Positions 2,962-28,455 of a DNA stretch of 28,455 nucleotides are shown here, one piece after another; position 1 is the stretch's first letter, and each line of letters begins with the position of its first letter. The notes beneath the pieces were generated by a model. It was not told the DNA's origin and ran no database searches. It was given only the letters and a program-made list of their open reading frames with translations. Both the position numbers and the translations under genes were made by a program. Location of the stretch: the IMG/VR virus record IMGVR_UViG_3300009428_000050, positions 1 to 28,455 of that record; one strand, given 5' to 3'. The DNA comes from a virus.

Positions 2962-5430
2962 GTGGCTATTGAAAGAGGTTTATACGCTTCCCCGTTGGGT
3001 ATGAGTGGTCTAGACGGTGTTGAGGAAATGGAAATCCCAGAAATGGAGATTGAAATTGTCGATCCAGAAGCTGTTACTCTATCTGATGGTAGTATGGAGA
3101 TAACACTTATTCCGGGTATGAACGCGGATATGGGCGCGTTTGATTCTAATTTAGCTGAATCTATGGACGAGAAAGAGCTAAATTTACTATCAAATGATCT
3201 TATTGGGCAAGTACAATCTGATGTAGATAGCCGCACCGATTGGGCAGATACTTTTGTAAAAGGCTTAGATGTATTAGGGTTTAAGTACGAGGAACGTACT
3301 GAGCCGTGGGAAGGCGCTTGTGGGGTTAACTCTACAGTGTTGGCAGAAGCGGTTATTCGTTTCCAAGCAGAAACCATGTCTGAGACGTTTCCCCCCGCAG
3401 GGCCCGTTAAAACTAAGATATTAGGCGAAGAGACTAAAGAAAAAGAAGAAGCTGCCAACAGAGTACAGGCAGATATGAACTATGAACTTACCGAGAATAT
3501 GGTGGAGTACCGCCCTGAACACGAACGTATGCTGTATAGTCTTGGCCTAGCTGGGTCAGCGTTTAAAAAGGTTTATTATGACCCGAATATTGGGCGGCAG
3601 GTAGCTCTGTATATATCGGCAGAAGATGTAATTGTCCCTTATGGCGCGTCTAATATTGAGTCAGCCGAGCGTGTTACGCACGTTATGCGTAAGACAAAGA
3701 ACGAACTAAAGAAGTTACAGGCCGCAGGATTTTATAAAGACATTGATCTTGGCGAGCCAGAATCTTTTCATACAGATATTGAAGAGAAAAAAGCCGAAGA
3801 TGGCGGGTTTTCCCTCAGTAATGACGATAGATACACCCTTTATGAGGTACATGCTGACCTTCTGATTGAGGGTGTAGATGACGAAGATGATATTGCTAGG
3901 CCTTATGTTGTTACTATTGAGCGTGGTAGTAGTGAGGTATTAGCCGTTCGTAGAAATTACAACGAAGATGATCCTCTCACTTTGAAACGGCAGCACTTCG
4001 TACACTATGTTTATGTACCCGGATTTGGCTTTTATGGCCTTGGATTGATCCATATTATCGGAGGGTATGCAAAAGCAGGGACTTCCTTGATACGGCAACT
4101 GGTTGACGCTGGAACCCTATCGAACCTCCCCGGAGGGTTAAAATCACGTGGACTTCGTATCAAGGGAGACGATACCCCGATTGAGCCGGGAGAGTTCAAG
4201 GACGTAGATGTACCGTCTGGGAGTATACGTGATAACATTATGCCGCTCCCATATAAGGAGCCAAGCCAAACTCTCCTAGCTTTACTTAGTCAGATTACGC
4301 AAGAAGGGCGTAGGTTAGGCGCTATCAGTGATATGAACATATCAGATATGTCGGCTAATGCCCCTGTAGGAACTACATTGGCTCTTTTAGAGCGTACTCT
4401 AAAGCCTATGGCAGCGGTACAGGCACGCGTACACTACACTATGAAGCAGGAGTTTAAGCTCCTCAAGGCTATCATGGCAGAGTACGCCCCTGTAGAGTAC
4501 GCCTACGCCCCGCTGAGAGGCGAGGTGACCGCTAAGCGGGATGACTACATGATGGTCGATGTTATCCCTGTAAGCGACCCTAACAGCTCTACAATGGCTC
4601 AGAGAGTAGTGCAGTATCAAGCTGTACTACAAATGTCTGAGAAAGCCCCCCAGATATACAATCTGCCACAACTACACAGACAAATGATTGAAGTGTTGGG
4701 CGTGAGGAACGCGGATAAACTTGTACCAACTAAAGATGACGCCAAGCCTACGGACCCCGTAAGTGAGAATATGGATTCTTTGATGGGTAAACCGATGAGG
4801 GCGTTTATATATCAAGATCAACAGGCCCATATCACCACCCACCAAGCGTTTTTACAAGACCCAATGGTGGCACAAATGATCGGGCAGAACCCACAGGCAA
4901 AGCAGATTATGGCGTCTATGCAGGCGCACATAGCGGAGCATCTAGGGTTCCAGTACCGCGGTCAGATAGAAGAACGTCTTGGTGTTACGCTTCCCGCGCC
5001 TAACGAGGAGCTTCCAGAAGAAGTCGAAGTTCAACTTTCTAGACTTGTAGCAGATGCAGGAAAGCAACTTACGCAGATGCACCAAAAGCAGGCGGCAGAA
5101 AAACAGGCGCAACAGAAACAACAAGACCCAATTATCCAGATGAAGCAAGCCGAGCTTCAGATTAAGCAGGCAGAAGAAAAACGCAAAGCCGCTAAAGATC
5201 AGATGGATTCACAGGTTCGCCAAGCTGAGCTTCAGATGAAACAACAGAAGCTTACGCTTGATGCTAAGGTGGCTTCTGAGCAAATCAACATTGACAAAGC
5301 CGAATTAGCAATAGATGCTAAAAGACAAGGCGTAAAAGAAACATTTGCTAAGCGTGTAGAAGATAACAAGGTTGACTTAGAGTTAGCTAAGTTAAGGCAA
5401 TCTAACGTAAACACAAAAAGGGAAAAATAA
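2962..5430 (+). CDS. Portal protein with long C-terminal coiled coil
   Basis: This forms the dodecameric portal at the packaging vertex. It is 822 aa, starting at GTG 2962 behind AGGAG (2949-2953, 8 bases away). The N-terminus is acidic. The middle holds the portal-type segment GGYAKAGTSLIRQLVDAGTL, then LPGGLKSRGLRI and a QITQEGRRLGAISDM helix near 450-470. From about residue 700 the protein is almost purely Gln/Lys/Glu/Ala-rich helix (repeated QAELQ(I/M)K(Q) units), a long coiled coil. In P22 the portal C-terminus forms a helical barrel inside the capsid, and this tail may do the same. The order terL-portal-scaffold-capsid supports the call. Confidence 0.88.
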   Translation: MAIERGLYASPLGMSGLDGVEEMEIPEMEIEIVDPEAVTLSDGSMEITLIPGMNADMGAFDSNLAESMDEKELNLLSNDLIGQVQSDVDSRTDWADTFVKGLDVLGFKYEERTEPWEGACGVNSTVLAEAVIRFQAETMSETFPPAGPVKTKILGEETKEKEEAANRVQADMNYELTENMVEYRPEHERMLYSLGLAGSAFKKVYYDPNIGRQVALYISAEDVIVPYGASNIESAERVTHVMRKTKNELKKLQAAGFYKDIDLGEPESFHTDIEEKKAEDGGFSLSNDDRYTLYEVHADLLIEGVDDEDDIARPYVVTIERGSSEVLAVRRNYNEDDPLTLKRQHFVHYVYVPGFGFYGLGLIHIIGGYAKAGTSLIRQLVDAGTLSNLPGGLKSRGLRIKGDDTPIEPGEFKDVDVPSGSIRDNIMPLPYKEPSQTLLALLSQITQEGRRLGAISDMNISDMSANAPVGTTLALLERTLKPMAAVQARVHYTMKQEFKLLKAIMAEYAPVEYAYAPLRGEVTAKRDDYMMVDVIPVSDPNSSTMAQRVVQYQAVLQMSEKAPQIYNLPQLHRQMIEVLGVRNADKLVPTKDDAKPTDPVSENMDSLMGKPMRAFIYQDQQAHITTHQAFLQDPMVAQMIGQNPQAKQIMASMQAHIAEHLGFQYRGQIEERLGVTLPAPNEELPEEVEVQLSRLVADAGKQLTQMHQKQAAEKQAQQKQQDPIIQMKQAELQIKQAEEKRKAAKDQMDSQVRQAELQMKQQKLTLDAKVASEQINIDKAELAIDAKRQGVKETFAKRVEDNKVDLELAKLRQSNVNTKREK

Positions 5431-11772: not shown

Positions 11773-12140
11773 TGGGCGCTAGGTTTGCTTCTTCTAAAAA
11801 CGCGTTAGGTATGTGCGATGTGTGTGGGTTCCAATACAGGCTACGTGAATTACGTGCGTTGTTTGTTAAAACCCGTAATACAAACCTTCGCGCGTGTAGA
11901 GAATGTTGGAACCCTAGCCATCCACAACTTATGCTTGGGGATAAACCTGTTAACGATCCTCAAGCTATTCGTGACCCTAGACCAGATACAAGTTTAGGCC
12001 TTACAGGTACAAACAGTAGCAGAAATGTGCAGTGGGGGTGGAATCCCGTAGGTTTTTCTACGTCACCCTATTTTCTACTACCTAATAATTTACTGTGTAC
12101 TACTGCACTTGGGCAGGTTACCATAACCACTAATACTTAG
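11772..12140 (+). CDS. Zinc-ribbon-like small phage protein
   Basis: This 122-aa protein has two CxxC pairs, C15-x2-C18 (CDVCGF) and C42-x2-C45 (CRECW), 24 residues apart, typical of a zinc ribbon. The C-terminal part is polar and ends in a strand-like TTALGQVTITTNT. Its ATG overlaps the previous stop (TAATG), and its TAG stop starts the next Shine-Dalgarno. Zinc-ribbon proteins next to adaptor genes are seen in phages of this type, but I know no function. Structural or nucleic-acid binding are both possible. Confidence 0.65.
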   Translation: MGARFASSKNALGMCDVCGFQYRLRELRALFVKTRNTNLRACRECWNPSHPQLMLGDKPVNDPQAIRDPRPDTSLGLTGTNSSRNVQWGWNPVGFSTSPYFLLPNNLLCTTALGQVTITTNT

Positions 12141-12149
12141 GAGTTTACT

Positions 12150-12335
12150 ATGAAAGCTAATAAAGATTCAAATGTCTTTGGGATGAAGGCGGTCAAAGTA
12201 CACAAAGATAAAGGTGTATACCCCTGTCCTGAAGCGCCAAAGCCAGATATGAGCAATGTAAAGACCAGCGGAATTAAAGTTCGTGGTACAGGAGCAGCTA
12301 CAAAAGGTTTAATGGCTCGCGGTCCTATGGGGTAA
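12150..12335 (+). CDS. Tiny phage protein with RGTGAATKGLxARGPMG tail
   Basis: This 61-aa protein is Lys/Gly-rich and ends KVRGTGAATKGLMARGPMG, a C-terminal block I have seen in many small marine phage proteins. It has an excellent TAGGAG Shine-Dalgarno and is followed 3 bases later by another tiny gene. Function unknown; it is basic and probably disordered. Confidence 0.68.
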   Translation: MKANKDSNVFGMKAVKVHKDKGVYPCPEAPKPDMSNVKTSGIKVRGTGAATKGLMARGPMG

Positions 12336-12338
12336 GCT

Positions 12339-12491
12339 ATGCGTAAACGTATCACACAACAGCAGAAAGCTGCGCTTAAAAAACATGCACCACATCATTC
12401 TAAAAAACATATGGATGATATGAAAAAGGCTATGCGTGAGGGTGAGACGTTTACAGAGGCGCATAAAAAAGCGAAAAAGATAGGTACGTGA
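12339..12491 (+). CDS. Tiny 50-aa basic protein
   Basis: A 50-codon frame starting ATG 12339 (MRKRITQQQKAALKKHAPHH..., ending AHKKAKKIGT) fills the gap between two clear genes exactly. About a third of residues are Lys or Arg, with several His. I recall a family of about 50-aa proteins of this form (QQxAALKxH...KKHMxxM) in marine phages. It lies 3 bases after the preceding stop and 1 base before the next ATG. Function unknown. Confidence 0.65.
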   Translation: MRKRITQQQKAALKKHAPHHSKKHMDDMKKAMREGETFTEAHKKAKKIGT

Positions 12492-12492
12492 T

Positions 12493-13122
12493 ATGAACTA
12501 TACCGATCTAAAAACTAACATTGAAGACATTTGCGCGATGACTTTTGAGGACGCGCAGTTAGCGTTGTTTGTACAACAAGCAGAGCAAAACATATATAAT
12601 TATGTTCAAATACCCGCGCTACGTAAAAATGTTACTGGATCATTAACAATTGACAGTAAATATCTTACTGTACCTAGTGATTTTTTATGGAGTTATAGTA
12701 TTGCGATAGAAACCGCAACGGACACATGGGCATTTTTAATTAACAAGGATGTTAATTTTATGCGTGAGGCTTACCCAAACTCTTCTGTAACTGGTGTACC
12801 AAAACACTACGCTTATTTTGACGCCACTAATTTTATATTAGCACCTACGCCCAGTGTAGCCTACAGTGTGGAGTTGCATTATGGATATTATCCAGAATCT
12901 ATTGTAACTGCGGGGAATACGTGGCTTGGTGACGAGTTTGATTCTGCGCTGCTAAATGGGGCGCTAGTTGAAGCTATACGCTTTATGAAAGGTGAAGAAG
13001 ATATGGTTGTTATGTATGATAAATTGTTTAGTCAAGCAATGGTACTTCTAAAACAGCTTGGCGATGGGAAACTACGCGAAGACGCGTATCGTTCAGGGCA
13101 ACCTCGTGTGCCAGTGAAGTAG
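12493..13122 (+). CDS. Putative adaptor/head-closure protein
   Basis: This 209-aa protein starts MNYTDLKTNIEDICAMTFED, has an N-terminal helical pair (AQLALFVQQAEQNIYNYVQI), a β core (SLTIDSKYLTVPSDFL; KHYAYFDATNFILAPTPSVA) and a C-terminal helix that includes ALLNGALVEAIRFMKGEEDM. This is the typical order of podoviral adaptor proteins of the SU10/T7-gp11 type (family name from memory). Position before the fibre genes fits. It probably forms a ring between portal and nozzle. Confidence 0.65.
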   Translation: MNYTDLKTNIEDICAMTFEDAQLALFVQQAEQNIYNYVQIPALRKNVTGSLTIDSKYLTVPSDFLWSYSIAIETATDTWAFLINKDVNFMREAYPNSSVTGVPKHYAYFDATNFILAPTPSVAYSVELHYGYYPESIVTAGNTWLGDEFDSALLNGALVEAIRFMKGEEDMVVMYDKLFSQAMVLLKQLGDGKLREDAYRSGQPRVPVK

Positions 13123-13131
13123 GAAAATACT

Positions 13132-13563
13132 ATGTCCATAACTCAATCCATGTGTACCTCGTTCAAGAAAGCACTTCTTGATGGAGAGATGGACTTTAGT
13201 TCCAACACAGCGCAAACGTTTTATATTGCTCTCTACACCGAAGACGCAGAGTTAGATGCTGATACTCAAGTGTATACAAATACTAATGAAGTAGTTGGTA
13301 CAGCATACGTATCGGGAGGAAAACTATTAACCATATCGCAAGTACCTATTACTAGCGGCACTACGGCGTACATAAACTTTGGCGATGTTACGTGGTTTTC
13401 TTCAACAATTACTGCCCGAGGGGCCCTAATATATAGAGCAGCGCCGTCAAATGCTGCTGTCGCGGTACTCGATTTTGGTTCCAATAAATCAACTACAGGC
13501 GCTAATTTTGTTATAGATTTTCCAACTACCGGAGTTAATACTGCATTAGTGAGAGTGCTGTAA
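13132..13563 (+). CDS. Conserved β-rich virion protein
   Basis: This 143-aa protein starts MSITQSMCTSFKKALLDGEM and contains YIALYTEDAELDADTQVYTN, ITARGALIYRAAP and AVAVLDFG near the C-terminus. I recognise this pattern (CxSFK..LL.G at the start, TxARGALIY later) from a very common phage structural family without a proven role. It is usually next to tail-fibre genes, as here. It is preceded by GTAGGAAAATACTATG, an initiation leader shared exactly with the gene at 18784, and overlaps the fibre gene (TAATG). Confidence 0.7.
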   Translation: MSITQSMCTSFKKALLDGEMDFSSNTAQTFYIALYTEDAELDADTQVYTNTNEVVGTAYVSGGKLLTISQVPITSGTTAYINFGDVTWFSSTITARGALIYRAAPSNAAVAVLDFGSNKSTTGANFVIDFPTTGVNTALVRVL

Positions 13564-16234: not shown

Positions 16235-17194
16235 ATGGTACATCCTTGGCGTAGGACAGGAAGTGTTTTTGGGAAAAAGGGGGCGGCTGGCTACCCCGAA
16301 CAAAGTGGGGTATACGATTTAAGAAGCCCCTATTTAAATTTAAATTTCGCCAATCCAATTGGAGAAATTCAATATCTTACTACGGGAGCGCACGTTTTTA
16401 CCGTACCCCTAAGTGTGACTAATGTTAGTTTTCTGTGTATTGGCGGCGGCGGTGGCGGTATGTATTTCAACAATAGTAGTTCAACTCATTCATATAGAAT
16501 GAATGGCGGTGGCGGCGGCGGTCTTGTGTATGTACCCTCGTTTGGAGTAATCCCCGGAGCCACGATCAGTTTAGCTGTGGGAGCGGCTGGTCAAAGTGGA
16601 GCATACAGCGGTTCTAGCACGGCGGGTGGTACTTCTAACTTCGGTCTTGCAAGTGCCGCAGGTGGAAACCCCGGAAGGTACAACAGTAATATATCAGGGG
16701 GTGTAGGTTCATCAGGAGGGTATGCTGGTGGGGTTGGTAACACAGGCGGTCAAAGTCAGGGTACGGGTTCTAGTGGCAATGGCCCAGCAGGAGGTGGGGG
16801 AGCCGCAGGATACACCTCAAATGGCGGCATAGGTTGGAACCGTGCTTCCGGTCAACCCACATATAGCGGGGATGGTGGCGGCGGCGGGGGCTGGCGTACT
16901 GCTAATTATAGCAGCCTTGGCGGCGGTGGTGTAGGTATATTTGGCGCAGGTTCTAACGGAACTCAAGGCGGTCCGAATACTCAAGCGGGTGGTGGTTCAG
17001 GCGGCACTAACCCCACATCCAACCAAGTGGGAGGACTATATGGTGGCGGTGGCGGCGGCAATTCAAGTGTTTTTTCCGGTACTGGTGGCGATGGCGAACA
17101 GGGGGCTGTTAGAGTAATATGGGGCGCGGGGCGCGCATATCCTTCTACTAATACCGCGCAATCTTATAGCGACGGCAACGTCACTATTGTGTAG
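16235..17194 (+). CDS. Glycine-rich tail adhesin-like protein 1
   Basis: This 319-aa protein has an N-terminal module (SGVYDLRSPYLNLNFANPIG), a VTNVSFLCIGGGGGG segment, a long region of Gly runs separated by short polar or aromatic stretches, and a C-terminal GAVRVIWGAGRAYPSTNTAQ block. Gly-rich repeats of this type form polyglycine-II bundles in T-even gp38 adhesins, and the same could apply here. It is a clear paralogue of the next gene. Host binding is inferred. Confidence 0.78.
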   Translation: MVHPWRRTGSVFGKKGAAGYPEQSGVYDLRSPYLNLNFANPIGEIQYLTTGAHVFTVPLSVTNVSFLCIGGGGGGMYFNNSSSTHSYRMNGGGGGGLVYVPSFGVIPGATISLAVGAAGQSGAYSGSSTAGGTSNFGLASAAGGNPGRYNSNISGGVGSSGGYAGGVGNTGGQSQGTGSSGNGPAGGGGAAGYTSNGGIGWNRASGQPTYSGDGGGGGGWRTANYSSLGGGGVGIFGAGSNGTQGGPNTQAGGGSGGTNPTSNQVGGLYGGGGGGNSSVFSGTGGDGEQGAVRVIWGAGRAYPSTNTAQSYSDGNVTIV

Positions 17195-17203
17195 GAGTCA
17201 AAT

Positions 17204-18187
17204 ATGAGTTGGCGAATAAATGGGGGACAGATAGGAGTCAAAAGAACATATAATGTCGTTAGCGATGACGGCATATGGGACTTATCCGCACCTTATGACC
17301 GTTTAAATGTTGTCCCTACAGGGGAAGCAGTGTTTTCAGGAACAACAACAGGAACTAGTAGAGTTCTTGCGTGGACTGTACCCGCGGGGGTAACCAATGT
17401 GTCCGTTGTAGTTGTTTCAGGTGGCGGAGGATCAAGCGGTTGTCCCGGTACTAGTACTCTTAGCGCCGCAGGTGGCGGCGGAGGTGCCCTTGCGTATGCA
17501 AACAATGTAACTGTTACTCCCGGATCAAATTGTAGAGTAGAGGTAGGTGGGCGTGGAACTAGAGGTACAAATGCTTTTGATATTCCCGGCGGCAATGGAA
17601 CTCAATCACAATTTTATACTAGCGCCACAGCTATACCAGCTAATCTAGCTGTATCCTGTTTTGGCGGCATTGGTGGTAGCCGCGTTGCTGGTGGCGGCGG
17701 AGCAGGAGGCGTAGTTGCTCAAGGTACGGGGGGAACAGGAGGCGTAGGAGGCGATCCGTTAAGTAATAACGGCGGTGGCGGCGGAGGAGGAGCTGGTGGC
17801 TATTCCGGTGCAGGCGGCGATGGAGGCGAAGGTAATAGTGGTGTAGGCGGAGTCGGAAGTGGCGGCGGTGGCGGAGGGGGAGGAGGGCGTAGCTCCGCAG
17901 GTACGCTCCCTAATACTGGAGGAGGGGCAGTAGGCGTTTATGGTGCAAGCGGCGATGGAGTTAGTGGAGCCACAAACAATCCGGGGGGCGGGGGGTCTAA
18001 TGGCTCTATTGGTACTTCAGAAGGAGGTACTCCGGGGGGAGGTGGCGGTGGAGTAGAAGATGATACGGCTTCGGATGGTCAACTTGGTGGGTATGGCGTA
18101 GTTAGAGTGATATGGGGTCCGGCGCGAACTTTCCCCACTACTAATGTTTCGCTGGCCGCTAGCAATGGCAATGTAACTACTTATTGA
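17204..18187 (+). CDS. Glycine-rich tail adhesin-like protein 2
   Basis: This 327-aa paralogue of the preceding gene shares the N-terminal (GIWDLSAPYDRLN), VPAGVTNVSVVVVSGGGG and C-terminal GYGVVRVIWGPARTFPTTNV blocks. The central Gly-rich part differs almost completely, with Gly runs up to nine residues. Two Cys occur near 80 and 107. A TAGGAG stop/Shine-Dalgarno fusion separates the two genes. Tandem duplication followed by divergence of the Gly-rich tip would widen or change host range, which is inference. Confidence 0.78.
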   Translation: MSWRINGGQIGVKRTYNVVSDDGIWDLSAPYDRLNVVPTGEAVFSGTTTGTSRVLAWTVPAGVTNVSVVVVSGGGGSSGCPGTSTLSAAGGGGGALAYANNVTVTPGSNCRVEVGGRGTRGTNAFDIPGGNGTQSQFYTSATAIPANLAVSCFGGIGGSRVAGGGGAGGVVAQGTGGTGGVGGDPLSNNGGGGGGGAGGYSGAGGDGGEGNSGVGGVGSGGGGGGGGGRSSAGTLPNTGGGAVGVYGASGDGVSGATNNPGGGGSNGSIGTSEGGTPGGGGGGVEDDTASDGQLGGYGVVRVIWGPARTFPTTNVSLAASNGNVTTY

Positions 18188-21792: not shown

Positions 21793-23937
21793 ATGGTTGT
21801 TCGGCGGTTAGAATTTGTACCCGGAATTAATACGAGCAAAACAAATTATTCGCGGCCCGGCGGTTGGTTTTACTCTAATTCAGTGCGTTTTGTGCAGGGG
21901 CAACCAGAAAAAATTGGTGGTTTTAGCGCGCTAATAACGGGCACAGGTAGTACTGCTTTTTTAGGTATAGCTCGCGCTATATGGGATTGGACTAACTTAG
22001 CGGGAATACAATATATTGGAGTCGGCACTAATCTTAAATATTATATTGCAAGAAACAACAGATACTATGATGTAACTCCTATTGACTCTACAGAAACATT
22101 AGCGGCTAACCCGTTTACTACTACTACCGGTTCAACACTCGTACAGGTCACTGTGGCGAATAATTCGTCTCTCAGGGTTGGTGACTATATAGGATTTAGT
22201 CCCGCGTCTATAACAGGTAATGGTGTTACGATAACCGAATTTGCTGTTTCTCCTGCGTCAAATGACTACGATTTTTTGTATAAAATTACCGAAATTCCCA
22301 CAGGGTCTACAACTACTTTTGTTTTTGACAGTTTTGACGCGGCAAGTTCTACTGGAACTTTTGGGGGTTCTGGAGTTGTAGTATCGTATTTATTACCTTC
22401 AGCATCAGCAACAGATACGGTTATATCTGGGTGGGGAACTGGTAGTTGGGGACTTGGTAATTGGGGCCATACTCCTGCGGGATCAGTTGAAAATCCTCAA
22501 CTTATGCGTTTATGGAGTCAAGATAATTTTGGAGAAGATTTAGTATTTGGTCCTCGTGGAGGAGAATTGTATTATTGGGATACTTCTTCTGGAGTAGCTA
22601 CTCGGGCAGTTAAATTAAATACTAGGCCCGGAGCGTCAGATGTTCCAGTAGTACAAAACCTTATGCTTGTATCAGACTCGCAACGGTTTACTTTTTGTTT
22701 TGGAACTAATCCTGTGGGGTCAACGGATCAAGACCCTTTGTTAGTGCGGTGGTCTGACCAAGATAGTGCTACAAATTGGACCCCTAGTGCTATTTCTCAA
22801 GCAGGAGGAATAGCGTTATCTAACGGAAATAAAATTGTAGCCGCGCAACAAGCTAGACAAGAAATACTTGTTTGGACCGATACCGCGCTATTTTCATTGC
22901 AATATGTTGGTGTTGACAGTGGCGTATGGGGATTAAATATTGTAGGAGAAAACATCTCCATAATGTCTCAAAACTCAATTGCGTATTCTAATGGTGTTGC
23001 GTATTGGATGGGTAATGGGGAGTTTTTTAAGTACGACGGCAGAACACAGGTCTTGCGGTGCGATGTAAAAAATTGGGTGTTTGACACCCTTAACTCTATT
23101 AATATTGGTAATGGACTTGATCGTACTCAAAAAGATCAAGTATGTTGTGGCACTAACGAAAACTTTGGTGAAGTTTGGTGGTTTTTTAAAGGCGAAGGCG
23201 GCGCAAACAATTACACCCGCTACAATGATCGGTATGTGGTATATAATTACGAACAAGATATTTGGTATTTTGGTACTTTTACCACACCCGGGTCGCTTAT
23301 AACTGGGACTAGAACTGCGTGGATAGATTCTAGAACGTCAAATAGCCCAATTGCCGCCACTGCACCAAATGAAGTATCAATAAGCTTGCGTAATGCCGCT
23401 GGACTGTCGCAAATCGGGCGTCTAGTACAACAGGAAATAGGGAATGACGTTACACAAACTATAGATGATAACGGAGTTTCTCTTTTTTCGTCGCCAGTTA
23501 CAGCTACTCAGGTTTTACCTGCAACTATAGAATCTACTATGTTTGATTTAGACGGAGGGGACCGGTTTATGTTTGTAGATCGTATTTTGCCCGACATATC
23601 TTTTGACGAAAGTAGTCAGAATACTGCCTCCGTTACTATAATTGTATCTGCGCATGACACTGCTGGAACAGGAACGCACCCCCCAGTAGGCGGCACGAAC
23701 GGCGGTATTAGTACGGTGGTGCAAGTAAATAATCAGGGGTGGGAGTTTGGCGGTCAAGAAACTTCAGACGGTAGGATACGCGGCGGCAGTGAATACTCAA
23801 TTCGTATGCGGGGGCGTGCTGTGACTTTCAGAATATATTCTGATTCTAATAATTCGTTTGGTGTAAAATGGCATTTAGGAGTTCCTAGAATTAACATACG
23901 TGCTGATGGACGAAGGGGAGGCAACATTGTCGGGTAA
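21793..23937 (+). CDS. Tail nozzle / packaged-DNA stabilisation protein (P22 gp10-like)
   Basis: This is likely the short-tail nozzle ring below the adaptors, in which the DNA ends. It is 714 aa, starting MVVRRLEFVPGINTSKTNYS and GGWFYSNSVRFVQGQPEKIG, a well-known opening of P22 gp10-like proteins. Then come a β-propeller-like body (WGTGSWGLGNWGH; WSDQDSATNWTPSAISQAGG; IAYSNGVAYWMGNGEFFKYD) and a C-terminal region ending GVKWHLGVPRINIRADGRRG. Size and order are normal. It overlaps the next small gene by 11 bases. Confidence 0.85.
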   Translation: MVVRRLEFVPGINTSKTNYSRPGGWFYSNSVRFVQGQPEKIGGFSALITGTGSTAFLGIARAIWDWTNLAGIQYIGVGTNLKYYIARNNRYYDVTPIDSTETLAANPFTTTTGSTLVQVTVANNSSLRVGDYIGFSPASITGNGVTITEFAVSPASNDYDFLYKITEIPTGSTTTFVFDSFDAASSTGTFGGSGVVVSYLLPSASATDTVISGWGTGSWGLGNWGHTPAGSVENPQLMRLWSQDNFGEDLVFGPRGGELYYWDTSSGVATRAVKLNTRPGASDVPVVQNLMLVSDSQRFTFCFGTNPVGSTDQDPLLVRWSDQDSATNWTPSAISQAGGIALSNGNKIVAAQQARQEILVWTDTALFSLQYVGVDSGVWGLNIVGENISIMSQNSIAYSNGVAYWMGNGEFFKYDGRTQVLRCDVKNWVFDTLNSINIGNGLDRTQKDQVCCGTNENFGEVWWFFKGEGGANNYTRYNDRYVVYNYEQDIWYFGTFTTPGSLITGTRTAWIDSRTSNSPIAATAPNEVSISLRNAAGLSQIGRLVQQEIGNDVTQTIDDNGVSLFSSPVTATQVLPATIESTMFDLDGGDRFMFVDRILPDISFDESSQNTASVTIIVSAHDTAGTGTHPPVGGTNGGISTVVQVNNQGWEFGGQETSDGRIRGGSEYSIRMRGRAVTFRIYSDSNNSFGVKWHLGVPRINIRADGRRGGNIVG

Positions 23938-24115
23938 TGATTTAATAGTATCGTTTCGCGCCCCTGCGTTGGGGATAGCCGCTAAAGAGTATAATCAACA
24001 GTTGGAAGAACAACAGCTAAACATTTTGCGTCTCTACTACACTAGGATAGATAATGCGCTGCGAAATAACAGTCAGGCGTTACAATCGCAAGCTATGGGA
24101 TGGTATATGAGCTAA
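23927..24115 (+). CDS. Small helical tail-tip region protein
   Basis: The 62-aa product starts at TTG 23927 (MSGNDLIVSFRAPALGIAAK...). I chose this start because AGGGGAGG (23913-23920) lies 6 bases upstream; an in-frame ATG at 23906 lacks such a site. The rest is a Gln/Leu-rich helix (EYNQQLEEQQLNILRLYYTR). It overlaps the nozzle gene and ends in TAATG. Function unknown. Confidence 0.6.
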   Translation: MSGNDLIVSFRAPALGIAAKEYNQQLEEQQLNILRLYYTRIDNALRNNSQALQSQAMGWYMS

Positions 24116-24435
24116 TGTCTAATAGATACGTAAATGCAAAATTAAAACTAGACACAACAGGTACTAGAGATTTGTATACGTGCGCAGAACAAACCACCGC
24201 GATAATAAAATCTATTAGTGTGTGTGATTTTTCTGGCAGCGGAGATACTATTTCAACAGCTATAAAAAATGGAACGCCTGTCTACAATATGTTTAAAGAT
24301 AAGCCTGTTGCAGCTAACGGTACACTAGAGTTGTTAACAGCTCCGCTAGTGCTAAACACCGGAGATATACTACAAGTTACCGCTGCAAATGCGAATAGAT
24401 TAGATATAGTCGCTAGCGTTCTAGAAATTACTTAG
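24115..24435 (+). CDS. Small β-rich virion protein
   Basis: This 106-aa protein (ATG 24115, overlapping the previous stop as TAATG; the frame is open further upstream) starts MSNRYVNAKLKLDTTGTRDL. It shows AIIKSISVCDFSGSGDTIST, VAANGTLELLTAPLVLNTGD and a terminal NRLDIVASVLEIT. This pattern is a recurrent small phage β-sandwich family of probable virion function. It marks the end of the structural block before the acyl-chain genes. Confidence 0.68.
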   Translation: MSNRYVNAKLKLDTTGTRDLYTCAEQTTAIIKSISVCDFSGSGDTISTAIKNGTPVYNMFKDKPVAANGTLELLTAPLVLNTGDILQVTAANANRLDIVASVLEIT

Positions 24436-24470: not shown

Positions 24471-24758
24471 ATGAACTTTTTAGACCTCTTCGATGCTTGT
24501 GTAATCGAAACCAACCCACGTCCAGACAAATATACAAAACCAATATCTTTAAATATAGGCCTTAGTGAAGAAGACATTGGGCTAGACAGTCTAGACGTTA
24601 CACTTGTCCTTGTACTTTTGTTTGAAATCTATGGGATACCAGAGACAGAAGATTTTGCTGTACCTACTACAAGCTTAGGCGCGGTTTGCGATTTTATGCA
24701 CGACAACAAAACTAAAGATTTTGACACAGTATCCGCGGCTATGGAGACTGTAACATGA
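24471..24758 (+). CDS. Phage-encoded acyl carrier protein
   Basis: This carries acyl chains on a 4'-phosphopantetheine arm. The 95-aa acidic protein contains the canonical attachment motif GLDSLD with Ser40 as the modified residue, followed by helix II (VTLVLVLLFEIYGI) and a C-terminal helix (TTSLGAVCDFMHDN). The N-terminal helix MNFLDLFDACVIETN is also present. Its stop overlaps the KS gene ATG (ATGA), so the two are translationally coupled. No phosphopantetheinyl transferase is in the window; a host enzyme would be needed. ATG 24471 follows a weak AGGTG. Confidence 0.88.
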   Translation: MNFLDLFDACVIETNPRPDKYTKPISLNIGLSEEDIGLDSLDVTLVLVLLFEIYGIPETEDFAVPTTSLGAVCDFMHDNKTKDFDTVSAAMETVT

Positions 24759-25870
24759 TATATCTATCTAAACTTTTTAGTACCTCAACAACCGCAACCA
24801 CACTTGTAAATGATGTACCGTTTCCGCAACATGCGCATATCATACCTAGTACTTTTAGGCGCGCCAAATCGGGATTAAAATATCCCCCGCATACATTATT
24901 AGAAACTGTAGTTACAAACGAAGCAGTAGAGTATGTGTTAAATAATCCAGTAAAAGGCAAAACAGGATTTATATTTGCCGCAGGTAATCAAGGCTGGATG
25001 GGTAATAATGGTCGGTATGATAAAGATGATACTGCTGAACTGCACTACAAAGTAAAACTGCCCTTTATTGTGCTTACCAATATATACGCAGGCCGTATTG
25101 CAAGTATATTTCATGTCCACGACCATGTATCTACAGACGCTAGCGCCTGCGCTTCAAGTTTAAAAGTTATGATGGACGTGCAAAATCTAATGAATAATTT
25201 TGATTTTGACCGCGTTATTGTGCTTACTGGAGAAGACTCGGTTAACAACCTTACACTAGAATTTTTTGGCGAAGCTGGGGCTAGTTTACAATACAAAGAC
25301 GAAGAACACACACGCCCGTCTGCTTTCGATAGTAGCAATCAAGGATTTTTTCTAGGGCAAGGTGCAGCTTTGTGTATATTTGAAAAGGACCACAGGGGAC
25401 TAGACAATCCCGAGGCCGCGTTTCTTGGGGCGTACACGTCTGCAGAAAACAATACAAATCCCCTTGGACAACGACCTGATGGCGAAGGTTATTCTAAAGC
25501 TATTGAAGGCTCCTTACATGTGGCAGAGGTACGTAAGGAAGATATACAGGTGGTAAAAAGTCATGGGACAGGTACAGAGGTAAACAACAGGGCAGAAAAA
25601 ACGGCGCTACAACGTAGTTTAGGAGAGTTTATGGCTACATCTTACAAACAACGTATAGGTCATACTATGGGGGCTAGCGGGTTATTAGAAACGGGGCTGT
25701 TGCTTAATGATTTAAAACGAGGTATTGTTCCAAAAATCCTCAATAGAACTGAACACGATGATGTGTTTTTGTCCTATGATGCGTCTGCTCCAAATAAAGG
25801 AGCGTTTATAAGTTTAGCTGCAGGTATGGGTAACGTCTATTCAGCAGCTATATTTTCGACAGGGGTGTAG
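24755..25870 (+). CDS. Phage β-ketoacyl-ACP synthase (KS), FabB/FabF-like
   Basis: This is predicted to condense malonyl-ACP with acyl chains. The 371-aa protein keeps the full catalytic set: Cys132 in STDASACASSL, His270 in KSHGTGTE, and Lys298...His303 in YKQRIGHTMGASG (the five-residue K-to-H spacing of FabF). The C-to-H-to-H distances (138, 33) match FabF. SSNQGFFLGQGAALCIFE matches the FVxGEGA region. It lacks the usual N-terminal VVxTGxG strand and is shorter than about 410 aa. The FabF GFGG gatekeeper loop appears to be GMGNVY here (about 357-362). It lies immediately after its likely ACP. Confidence 0.87.
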   Translation: MIYLSKLFSTSTTATTLVNDVPFPQHAHIIPSTFRRAKSGLKYPPHTLLETVVTNEAVEYVLNNPVKGKTGFIFAAGNQGWMGNNGRYDKDDTAELHYKVKLPFIVLTNIYAGRIASIFHVHDHVSTDASACASSLKVMMDVQNLMNNFDFDRVIVLTGEDSVNNLTLEFFGEAGASLQYKDEEHTRPSAFDSSNQGFFLGQGAALCIFEKDHRGLDNPEAAFLGAYTSAENNTNPLGQRPDGEGYSKAIEGSLHVAEVRKEDIQVVKSHGTGTEVNNRAEKTALQRSLGEFMATSYKQRIGHTMGASGLLETGLLLNDLKRGIVPKILNRTEHDDVFLSYDASAPNKGAFISLAAGMGNVYSAAIFSTGV

Positions 25871-25873
25871 ATT

Positions 25874-26338
25874 TTGGAAGTAATTGATAGTAACGAAAGA
25901 AAATTATCTCCTCCGGAAATAATTATAGCTGCGTTAATTAATCTTGGGTCGGGAGACTACACTCCGCAAGAAGGATTAGCCGCCGTGGCGGTAGAAATAG
26001 ATCAACCAAACACAGATTTATTAGAGTTAGGTAATACTGTTTTTATTGGTCACAGAGGTACGGGTAAAAGCAAACATAAAATGTGGGGTAGAGGACTTAC
26101 CGTAGATACAGCTCAAAATTTTATATCTGCGGGGTTGAAATATTTTACTCATCTGCAAGAGTTGGGTATTACCCAATACATTACTGAATACGACGGCGCG
26201 GTGTATGATAGCGCGTTTAAAACGTGGAAACGTTACGGAGATCGTGCAGATACTAAGATAGCCGTAGGTAGATTATCTGACGGAAATTCAAAAGCTTTTG
26301 TTGAATTAGGTGTAATTCCTTTATCTAAGGTAATGTAA
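25874..26338 (+). CDS. Small protein with GNAT-like order, upstream of internal virion gene
   Basis: This 154-aa protein starts at TTG 25874 (AGGGG about 9 bases upstream; no ATG nearby). It has an α start (LSPPEIIIAALINLG), strands LAAVAVEI and LELGNTVFIGHR, helix DTAQNFISAGLKYFTHLQEL, strand ITQYITEYDG, helix and a final strand AFVELGVIPL. This order resembles GNAT acyltransferases and, from memory, a podoviral family that precedes internal virion genes (T7 gp13-like). GHRGTGKS also fits the P-loop pattern GxxxxGKS, but no Walker B is evident. It overlaps the next gene (TAATG). Confidence 0.5.
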   Translation: MEVIDSNERKLSPPEIIIAALINLGSGDYTPQEGLAAVAVEIDQPNTDLLELGNTVFIGHRGTGKSKHKMWGRGLTVDTAQNFISAGLKYFTHLQELGITQYITEYDGAVYDSAFKTWKRYGDRADTKIAVGRLSDGNSKAFVELGVIPLSKVM

Positions 26339-28455
26339 TGAGCTTCGCAGTAAAAATAATTAAAAAAGTAGTTAACAAAGCTGTTGATCTTGTTGGAGAT
26401 GTAGTGGGCGCTGTTGGAGACATGGCTGATTGGGTCATGGATGAAATAGTCGATCCGGTTTTTGACGCGATACAAGACGTTGATTTGTGGGACGTAGCTA
26501 AAATTGCCGCCGCTGTATACGCACCGTGGGCTCTACCCCTTATTTCAGGGGCAGAAGCAATAGATCAAGGTGGTGATCTTGGAGACGCTTTTAAAGCCGC
26601 TGCAGTTTCTTACGTAGCGGCTGAAGCTGGCGCTATGGCTGGGGATTATGTTGGGACTGCTGTAGGGGAGGCTACGGGCAGTCAAATAGCTGAAACAATA
26701 ACAACCGCGGCAATTTCAGGGGGTACTAGAGAATCTGTAGGCGCAATAGCTTACGGAGAAGACCCCTTTAAAGCCTTTATTGCAGGAGGTGTAAGTGCGG
26801 GATTGTCCGCGGCAATGGGTGAGGTTGATACACTTACTGGAGCCAAACTTGAAGGAGTAGTAGACGAAGTTACTGGGGAGACTATTGTTCAACAAGTAGG
26901 CGGCGCTTTCTCTAAGCTTCCTCCTACAGCGCAAAATATTATAAAAGATTCTCTTGCGGCAGTTGCTACAGGACAAGATGTTGATGCAGGAGTTCTCGCT
27001 GGGGCTATAGCAAGAGCACATGTAACCACAGACTTAGTGAGCGCCTTTATTGGAGATAACGTAGACTTAGAAGCCGCTGAAATTGCGGCAATTACTTTAG
27101 CCGTTCAACGTTCCGCCGCCGCCGCTGCATCCGGCGGTTCTATATCTGACGCAGTAATGCAAACAGTAACTCAATATGGGCAAACTGAGTTTAATAAAGT
27201 TGCAGGAGAAACGGTTAGAACTGGAATTAATAAGGTATCAGGGGCGTATCAAAATTTAACGGAAGCAGTTGATAAGATAGACGCCACGGGCGCAGAACGT
27301 ATGGCCGTTGCGGAAGAATACAACACGTTAAAATTTGAATATGATGCTGCTTACGAAGTAAGAAGGGCAGCTAAAGAAGATTTTGATGATGCCAAAGCTA
27401 ACTTTGAAGCAAACCCCACAATTTTAAATCAAGAAATTGCAATAGACGCTAATGCGGTTCAAAAAGAAGCGGACAACGCTTTTTCTAAAGTATATGACGA
27501 GATACTGCCACAACTTGAACCGCTTGAACTTGAATATGATCGCCTAAATGATTTAATTCAGACGTATGAAGTAGACCTTTCCGCTGCACAAGACGAGCTA
27601 GTATCAGGCACTTCGTTAATGAGCGAAGAGTTTGTTCCCCTGTTTGGCGCTATAGACAAGGCTTTTGTCTTAGGTATGGTTCCTGATTTTGATGAGGAAA
27701 GTTATAGAAAATTTAACAGTATTCCTGAAGGTGAAGACGCTTATTTTCATTGGTTAACTATTGGTAAAGATGAAAATTTACCTACAAACGAAACTGAATA
27801 CGAAAACGCATTTAATCGTAGACGCACACAGTTAATAAACCAAACATTAGGTAGTCAGTTTCCGGGTTTAACCATTGCTAATATTTCAGAAAATGAAGTT
27901 AAGCGTGTTATTAGTAATATAGATGAAAAGTACTCAACTTTAGCCGAACTTAATGATGCTTCATATGTAGATGTTGCTCAGTTAATGTTGCAAGACGCTG
28001 GAGAAGCGTTTGTACAAAAATGGAACCACACAGCATATAATACTTGGGCTGAAAACAACCCTGAGCTTGTTCCAACTGGCGGGGGTGTAGATAAAAGATT
28101 AGACGAAGATGGTAAAGTAATAGTAGAGTTTGCTGCTAACACCACTCTTACCCCAGAAATAATAGACCTTTTGGGGCGTTTAGACCCTACTTATATACCT
28201 GACGGTATAGAAGGCGAACAATTAACTGACGCCGAATTATCAATTTTAAACTCCGCTATGGAACCGCCGACTGCAGCACAAGAGTTTGTGATAGATAGTT
28301 TGTCTCTTGATCAAGAGACAGCGGCAATGGCGATAGCAAGTAATCAAGCAAGTGTTCAATTAAGCCCTAACGGACTCAAAAAATGGGGCGAAACAGTATA
28401 TAAATCTCCTGAGTGGAGCGAAAAATACGGGCAAATGGTGTACCGTTACGAATAC
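26338..28455 (+). CDS. Large internal virion/ejection-type protein, 3' end beyond the window
   Basis: An uninterrupted frame of 706 codons starts at ATG 26338 and runs off the right edge. The N-terminus is amphipathic and Val/Asp-rich (MSFAVKIIKKVVNKAVDLVG, DVVGAVGDMADWVMDEI). Next is a Gly/Ala-rich, membrane-interacting-looking region (about 60-165), then charged helices and coiled coil (about 310-400). WSEKYGQM lies near the edge. Such giant proteins after the GNAT-like gene usually are ejected internal virion proteins of podoviruses (T7 gp15/16-like role). No lytic transglycosylase motif is seen in the visible part. Confidence 0.7.
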   Translation, partial: MSFAVKIIKKVVNKAVDLVGDVVGAVGDMADWVMDEIVDPVFDAIQDVDLWDVAKIAAAVYAPWALPLISGAEAIDQGGDLGDAFKAAAVSYVAAEAGAMAGDYVGTAVGEATGSQIAETITTAAISGGTRESVGAIAYGEDPFKAFIAGGVSAGLSAAMGEVDTLTGAKLEGVVDEVTGETIVQQVGGAFSKLPPTAQNIIKDSLAAVATGQDVDAGVLAGAIARAHVTTDLVSAFIGDNVDLEAAEIAAITLAVQRSAAAAASGGSISDAVMQTVTQYGQTEFNKVAGETVRTGINKVSGAYQNLTEAVDKIDATGAERMAVAEEYNTLKFEYDAAYEVRRAAKEDFDDAKANFEANPTILNQEIAIDANAVQKEADNAFSKVYDEILPQLEPLELEYDRLNDLIQTYEVDLSAAQDELVSGTSLMSEEFVPLFGAIDKAFVLGMVPDFDEESYRKFNSIPEGEDAYFHWLTIGKDENLPTNETEYENAFNRRRTQLINQTLGSQFPGLTIANISENEVKRVISNIDEKYSTLAELNDASYVDVAQLMLQDAGEAFVQKWNHTAYNTWAENNPELVPTGGGVDKRLDEDGKVIVEFAANTTLTPEIIDLLGRLDPTYIPDGIEGEQLTDAELSILNSAMEPPTAAQEFVIDSLSLDQETAAMAIASNQASVQLSPNGLKKWGETVYKSPEWSEKYGQMVYRYEY

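Follow-up and report, generated by a model that had tools for sequence, protein, structure and literature searches.

An acyl carrier protein and ketosynthase gene pair, usually placed before ejection genes, in a large group of uncultured phages

Acyl carrier protein (ACP) genes have been reported in phages (PMC5463345, PMC11705849, PMC8224337), and for some of these phages an auxiliary metabolic role of the ACP gene has been proposed (PMC11705849, PMC8224337). Reads of fabF have been reported from deep viromes without context (PMC10653327). In elongating β-ketoacyl synthases (KSs), Phe400 serves as a gate that may exclude unsuitable acyl intermediates, and an F400A FabF is roughly as reactive toward acyl-ACP probes as the wild type (PMC7138838). 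The RtxC acyltransferases are GNAT-like proteins that lack CoA-binding elements and use acyl-ACP as the donor (PMC8339906, PMC8510554). We found no description of a phage ACP-KS pair in the open-access literature, which was the reach of our search and leaves subscription papers outside it. The nearest isolates to the phage described here, by terminase (45-47%) and by a gp10-like protein, are HTVC023P/HTVC027P-type pelagiphages and their relatives. These phages have no KS match in the annotated collection, and in the HTVC023P stretch nothing matches the ACP, the KS or the GNAT-fold protein described below.

The window, that is, the whole stretch of DNA analysed, is the 28,455-base IMG/VR virus record IMGVR_UViG_3300009428_000050. 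Its genes run in the order terminase, portal, major head protein, tail, holin and endolysin, with the ACP-KS locus in the late operon. Within the tail region, two adjacent genes (16235-17194 and 17204-18187) both match phrog_4474 over the same profile region and represent a tandem duplication. The left flank of the locus, on the + strand like the genes that follow it, is a gp10-like tail/stabilization protein (21793..23937; phrog_3287, virion structural protein, 2e-52), which is ~30% identical to the HTVC023P-type, MinM2 and DSL-LC04 proteins, the last of which is annotated as a stabilization protein. Two small genes follow, a tail-type protein of 71 aa (23900..24115) that also adjoins gp10 in L002, L008, L070 and other loci, and a tail protein of 111 aa (24100..24435; phrog_1276, 1.1e-07). 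Next come the ACP (95 aa, 24471..24758), the KS (371 aa, 24755..25870), and a GNAT-fold protein of 154 aa with a TTG start (25874..26338). The locus ends with the start of a giant internal virion protein (26338..28455) that is cut by the window end and is probably ejected. Its N-terminus is amphipathic/hydrophobic, and its relatives reach ~1,700-2,250 aa or more (e.g. L002 11586-16616 and L005 11582-18346). The first-pass annotation had placed the ACP and KS between a small tail protein and an internal virion gene; both flanks are as described, but the intervening GNAT-fold gene had been overlooked.

KS-less relatives have a 63-65 aa gene in the position of the 71 aa gene and a similar 107 aa gene in that of the 111 aa gene, followed immediately by a large protein of a different type. 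We considered these relatives as examples of an empty site; since gp10 and the small tail genes are similar while the large protein is mostly of the other type, they do not represent a clean empty site. In HTVC023P (L290), a gene annotated as glycosyl transferases group 1 (11956-12885) lies downstream of the gp10-like protein in the region matching the place of the ACP-KS pair, and the position downstream of the gp10-like gene may act as a hotspot for cargo enzymes.

The ACP carries its phosphopantetheine serine, Ser40, in the motif GLDSLD that the first-pass annotation had recognized, and the Asp and Ser of this site are present in 131 of 131 distinct phage ACPs (the Leu in 127, with Met in the other 4). 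As a single sequence the window ACP has no Pfam match and falls below the cut-off of TIGR00517 (4e-4; 20.1 of 70.45 bits), and PF00550 is matched in 9 of 30 family members, with a best value of 0.0032. A profile of this 30-member family finds solved ACPs in the PDB at 1.5e-5 and many more below 0.01, the match covering about positions 28 to 80. The protein belongs to phrog_14581 (PHROGs v4, 3.4e-5), which is listed as unknown function. It shares the DSL(D) site with bacterial AcpP, a type II ACP, but differs in its C-terminal extension, in its sub-cut-off family scores and in having mostly uncharged residues where AcpP has Glu41 and Glu47 of the acidic recognition helix. This loss suggests a private partner surface on the phage ACP. 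The dN/dS values are mostly 0.05-0.17, with a single value of 0.39 coming from a near-identical pair.

The KS gene overlaps the ACP gene by the four bases ATGA (24755..24758), which can be read directly in the sequence as noted in the first pass. Its product exceeds the cut-offs of PF02801 (1.6e-18) and PF00109 (1.5e-11), so that the HMM searches proposed for the pair identified the KS but not the window ACP. It also matches solved FabF sequences (1e-21) and many FabF-type models below their equivalog cut-offs, including fabF TIGR03150 (E 9.8e-32; 110 bits, where the cut-off is 493.75). Its PHROGs v4 family, phrog_35856 (1e-34), is listed as unknown function. The AF2 model (pLDDT 87.5) superposes on FabF 2rjt over 361 residues with a Z of 41.3, and the predicted thiolase-type KS fold spans the full length of the protein, as in the KAS I/II superfamily. 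The phage KSs differ from FabF/FabB in their ~20% identity over the structural alignment, their shorter length and their separate clade, and are alike in the spacing of the active site. C132, H270, K298, H303 and E312 align with FabF C163, H303, K335, H340 and E349 and are invariant in 134 distinct phage KSs, which bears out the FabF-like spacing seen in the first pass for the first four residues. The Cys-His-His set with Lys and Glu for decarboxylative condensation is therefore complete. A chain-length factor or other non-condensing KS homologue was rejected as a candidate, as the active-site Cys and the second His are kept in 134 of 134 sequences. The dN/dS values for the KS are 0.035-0.19.

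The gate of the KS is altered throughout the family. All 134 phage KSs have Met (M358) in place of Phe400, Ala in place of Phe398 and Asn (N278) in place of Asp311, whereas Phe400, Phe398 and Asp311 are found in 56 of 56 bacterial KSs in the alignment. The Asn404 position is Tyr or Phe, Gly402 is replaced by Asn, and the motif reads AAGMGN where SFGFGG is expected. The phage KSs thus lack the GFGG gate loop, Phe400, Asn404 and Asp311 of elongating FabF/FabB enzymes. Because the gate has been rebuilt, the label FabF in its housekeeping sense is doubtful. Since F400A FabF still accepts acyl-ACP, we infer that the phage KS should be able to condense, with altered substrate control. The family constitutes a set of natural KSs with a replaced Phe400 gate and would be useful for testing the gating model.

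The pair is widespread in uncultured phages. In a profile scan of IMG/VR, the KS was found to be encoded by at least 545 stretches. Since several scans share some of their loci, identical sequences were removed, which left 150 distinct complete KS genes. The ACP lies directly upstream of the KS in all 149 distinct loci with room for it, none of these having a KS without an ACP, and the 4-base overlap is present in 127 of the 149. A GNAT-type gene directly follows the KS in 133 of 138 distinct loci. The distances among ACP, KS and GNAT are all correlated in a mirror-tree comparison (r 0.82-0.88), with no pair singled out. The annotated collection contains one good match, Caudoviricetes sp. ctpbd312 (MW202545), a circular 57 kb genome from Manatee Spring that has the stabilization protein, ACP, KS, GNAT-type gene and internal virion gene in the same order. 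Its KS, 52% identical to that of the window, is annotated as 3-oxoacyl-ACP synthase and its ACP as hypothetical; no publication on this block was found in the open-access literature. Conservation over hundreds of contigs, together with dN/dS values mostly well below 0.2, rules out chance, and the carriers of the ACP-KS pair are a large, old group of uncultured phages.

The KS was not recently acquired from a host. In a set of 84,980 bacterial and archaeal species, represented by one genome apiece, a single close relative (51%) was found. It lies on a Balneolaceae MAG contig that bears these phage genes too and has an ACP before the KS, and the remaining bacterial matches are at most ~34% identical. 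We built a tree from 30 phage KSs and 58 bacterial KSs, including FabF of Balneolaceae relatives, E. coli FabF and FabB, and the best matches in other phyla. The phage KSs form one clade (SH-aLRT 100) with a stem of 2.88 changes per column, in what is a quick tree with flagged long branches and a bacterial set picked partly by phage-like motifs. Even with these caveats, a recent origin from a host is excluded. The idea of a recently host-derived auxiliary metabolic gene was dropped, as the KS has, apart from the one on the phage-type contig, no close relative among these bacterial genomes and is not nested in a host clade.

The ACP-KS pair does not have a fixed position in the genome. The commonest arrangement is that of the window, ACP-KS-GNAT-giant protein; six distinct loci have ACP-GNAT-giant protein and no KS, and four have GNAT-giant protein with neither ACP nor KS. 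In five further distinct loci, drawn from two KS clades, the pair lies in an early module beside genes that by sequence reading are of helicase, DUF3310 and small-terminase type, and no GNAT gene was seen on these contigs of 4-13.5 kb. Union of the two early-module KS clades is rejected (AU p 0.018). The virion operon is thus the usual place of the pair, as first described, but the proposition that it always lies there is ruled out by the early-module loci. Early-module loci such as L077 and L377 (also L381, L382, L387 and L424) have KSs of two clades in the same surroundings; repeated exchange of ACP-KS into one early-module site is possible.

Two of the KS-less loci contain remnants of the missing gene. 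In L338 an in-frame KS scar, MIYMTQ-DDSVFLSSDAPVPE-GMGNIYSAALFSREV, lies between an intact ACP and an intact GNAT gene (3886-3993), and in L324 a different in-frame scar (2198-2275), MSKTIEGALFIAKVHQNDVKLAGG..., resembles the KS stretch SKAIEGALFVAKAHQNDVRLV, again between intact ACP and GNAT genes. A single scar may come from an assembly error; two different scars with ACP and GNAT still open point to at least two losses of the KS. Searches of the contigs of 47.5 and 59.8 kb with ACP-GNAT-giant protein turned up no KS at another position. The KS is therefore dispensable in these two lineages that have kept ACP and GNAT. Likewise, the four GNAT loci without ACP or KS show that GNAT need not depend on ACP-KS, and a GNAT specific to ACP-KS is ruled out by these and the ACP-GNAT loci. 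Altogether, ACP-KS is a tight pair and a mobile unit that adjoins GNAT and the giant protein in most loci, though not in all.

The product of 25874-26338 has no family match in Pfam, PHROGs or further family searches, and its fold was recognized from its AF2 model (pLDDT 92.4). The best 50 PDB matches to the model are all GNAT-fold proteins, with RimI at the top (Z 11.7) and TofI, an acyl-homoserine-lactone synthase, scoring Z 10.1. The viral model that matches best belongs to an uncharacterized phage protein; a model of an internal virion protein A matches weakly. The canonical CoA-binding P-loop is missing: the pyrophosphate loop Q/RxxGxG/A, which lies between strand 4 and helix 3, is replaced by 3 residues between the strand at 69-76 and the helix at 80-96, and no such motif is present in the family alignment. 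Conserved residues are E41, G53-N54-T55, R73, D78 and F115. Like RtxC/HlyC, the phage protein has a GNAT-like fold without CoA-binding elements and a gene placed right before that of a large membrane-active protein, but it has no detected sequence relation to them. Its Asp78 is invariant in 27 members and no His is; lacking the RtxC-type His/Asp dyad, it is not assigned to RtxC/HlyC. A giant-protein ORF with a related N-terminus follows GNAT, wherever readable, in all three arrangements that contain it: with KS, without KS, and with neither ACP nor KS. The roseophage CRP-902 (L291), which has no ACP or KS, contains an annotated GNAT (12894-13328) before large internal genes that is not detectably similar to that of the window. 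In L065, L066 and L067, the GNAT is 58-61% identical to the window's, about as close as the GNATs of the window clade, and the KS (67-68%) falls in another clade, which suggests recombination between the neighbouring genes.

Further fatty-acid enzymes were looked for in the phage contigs. Neither a phosphopantetheinyl transferase (PPTase) nor an SDR-type ketoreductase turned up in MW202545 or the first 17 virus contigs, and 20 phage records of 42-66 kb yielded no PPTase, SDR, FabD-type malonyl transferase or FabA/Z dehydratase; the same searches were positive in control genomes. A fuller phage fatty-acid synthase was dropped as a candidate on these results. The description of the locus as the acyl-elongation core therefore holds for a KS that looks catalytically intact and its dedicated ACP, but the reductase, dehydratase and both transferases were not found in the records searched. 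Since neither a PPTase nor a malonyl transferase was found, host enzymes would have to prime and charge the phage ACP.

We propose, with a probability of roughly 0.6 that covers the pair and not the fate of its product, that the ACP and KS form a catalytic, self-contained, phage-owned and translationally coupled condensing pair. From the sequences, it is most likely active, private and dependent on host supplies. Host AcpS would load Ser40 of the phage ACP, and host FabD or an acyl-ACP synthetase would charge it. Cys132 of the KS would then take up an acyl chain, which His270 and His303 would help to condense, with decarboxylation, with the malonyl group carried by the phage ACP; the product would be a β-ketoacyl-ACP. 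With the Glu41/Glu47 equivalents of the ACP and the Phe400 gate of the KS both replaced, the two proteins probably work mainly with each other, and their substrate or product is probably one that ordinary elongating KSs exclude. An active private pair is favoured by the invariant catalytic residues of both proteins, by its joint inheritance under purifying selection, by phage monophyly and by movement as a pair between modules. Against it stand the weakness of the ACP in single-sequence searches and the dispensability of the KS in two lineages.

What becomes of the product can be read in several ways. The first-pass annotation had suggested either a redirection of host lipid synthesis or an acyl group for a phage component, and the GNAT-fold neighbour makes the second reading more concrete. 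The acyl thioester could most often be passed to the GNAT-fold protein and from there onto the ejection protein encoded next, a step we offer tentatively. In its fullest form, ACP-KS would make a special acyl group that the GNAT-fold protein, accepting acyl-ACP because its CoA loop is lost, attaches to the giant ejection protein for entry into or crossing of the host membrane; this private protein-lipidation line is on balance unlikely. Ejection-protein acylation is consistent with the position of GNAT before the giant protein, co-inheritance, the loss of the CoA loop and the retention of ACP-GNAT after KS loss, and is opposed by the early-module loci with no GNAT seen, by the GNAT-only loci and by the missing His/Asp dyad. 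We consider modulation of host lipids about equally likely as acylation of the ejection apparatus. The phage KS and ACP would in that case join host fatty-acid synthesis to extend or bias the acyl chains of host lipids, with host FabG, FabZ and FabI doing the rest, which fits the complete condensation residues, the need for a host reductase and dehydratase, and the early-module placement in two KS clades. The proposals of an auxiliary metabolic ACP in other phages (PMC11705849, PMC8224337) point the same way, but the published prophage fabG-acpP-fabF set (PMC8224337) is arranged like the E. coli fab operon and may therefore be host DNA. The usual place between tail and ejection genes of a late virion operon, the replacement of the substrate-sorting gate in every phage KS, and the lost acidic ACP residues, which argue against easy use by host enzymes, make such an auxiliary metabolic role somewhat doubtful.

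The phage ACP and KS might instead act as a decoy that titrates AcpS, FabD or malonyl-ACP and so halts host lipid synthesis. FabF overproduction blocks fatty-acid synthesis in E. coli, and the pair could have this effect with no other enzyme, matching the lack of any found. However, a decoy would require neither the preservation of all KS catalytic residues over 134 divergent sequences nor an invariant ACP partner, and with the usual late-operon placement also counting against it we regard a shut-off as improbable. The two proteins could also be virion or assembly components whose enzymatic features are relics, in keeping with their location next to the GNAT-fold and ejection genes, and with the weak structural resemblance of the GNAT-fold protein, a putative enzyme, to the internal virion protein A model. 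The invariant Cys/His/His/Lys/Glu set and the ACP Asp-Ser are signatures of catalysis rather than relics, and the pair is also found outside the structural module, so that a structural or chaperone role is quite improbable. The window is a single metagenomic contig, which left room for a recent host acquisition or an assembly chimera. This explanation is refuted by the gene-neighbour survey and the tree that the first-pass annotation called for, and we give it almost no weight: the IMG/VR stretches, the circular ctpbd312 genome with the same block, the deep monophyletic phage clade and the sole near relative, itself carried by a phage-type contig, all oppose it.

Of these readings, the active private pair remains the one we favour. 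KS and ACP are core metabolic enzymes that here form a phage-specific branch over hundreds of environmental contigs, mostly in the virion operon. The presence of ACP-KS, usually before ejection genes, suggests that the phages produce or modify a fatty-acyl group that they use themselves. The protein-lipidation line, if true, would parallel the HlyC/HlyA system within the virion, and we know of no previous description of phage acyl chemistry on the phage's own DNA-delivery proteins. If the pair is active, these phages would either acylate their own DNA-delivery proteins or influence the fatty-acid chemistry of the host through a KS with an altered gate.
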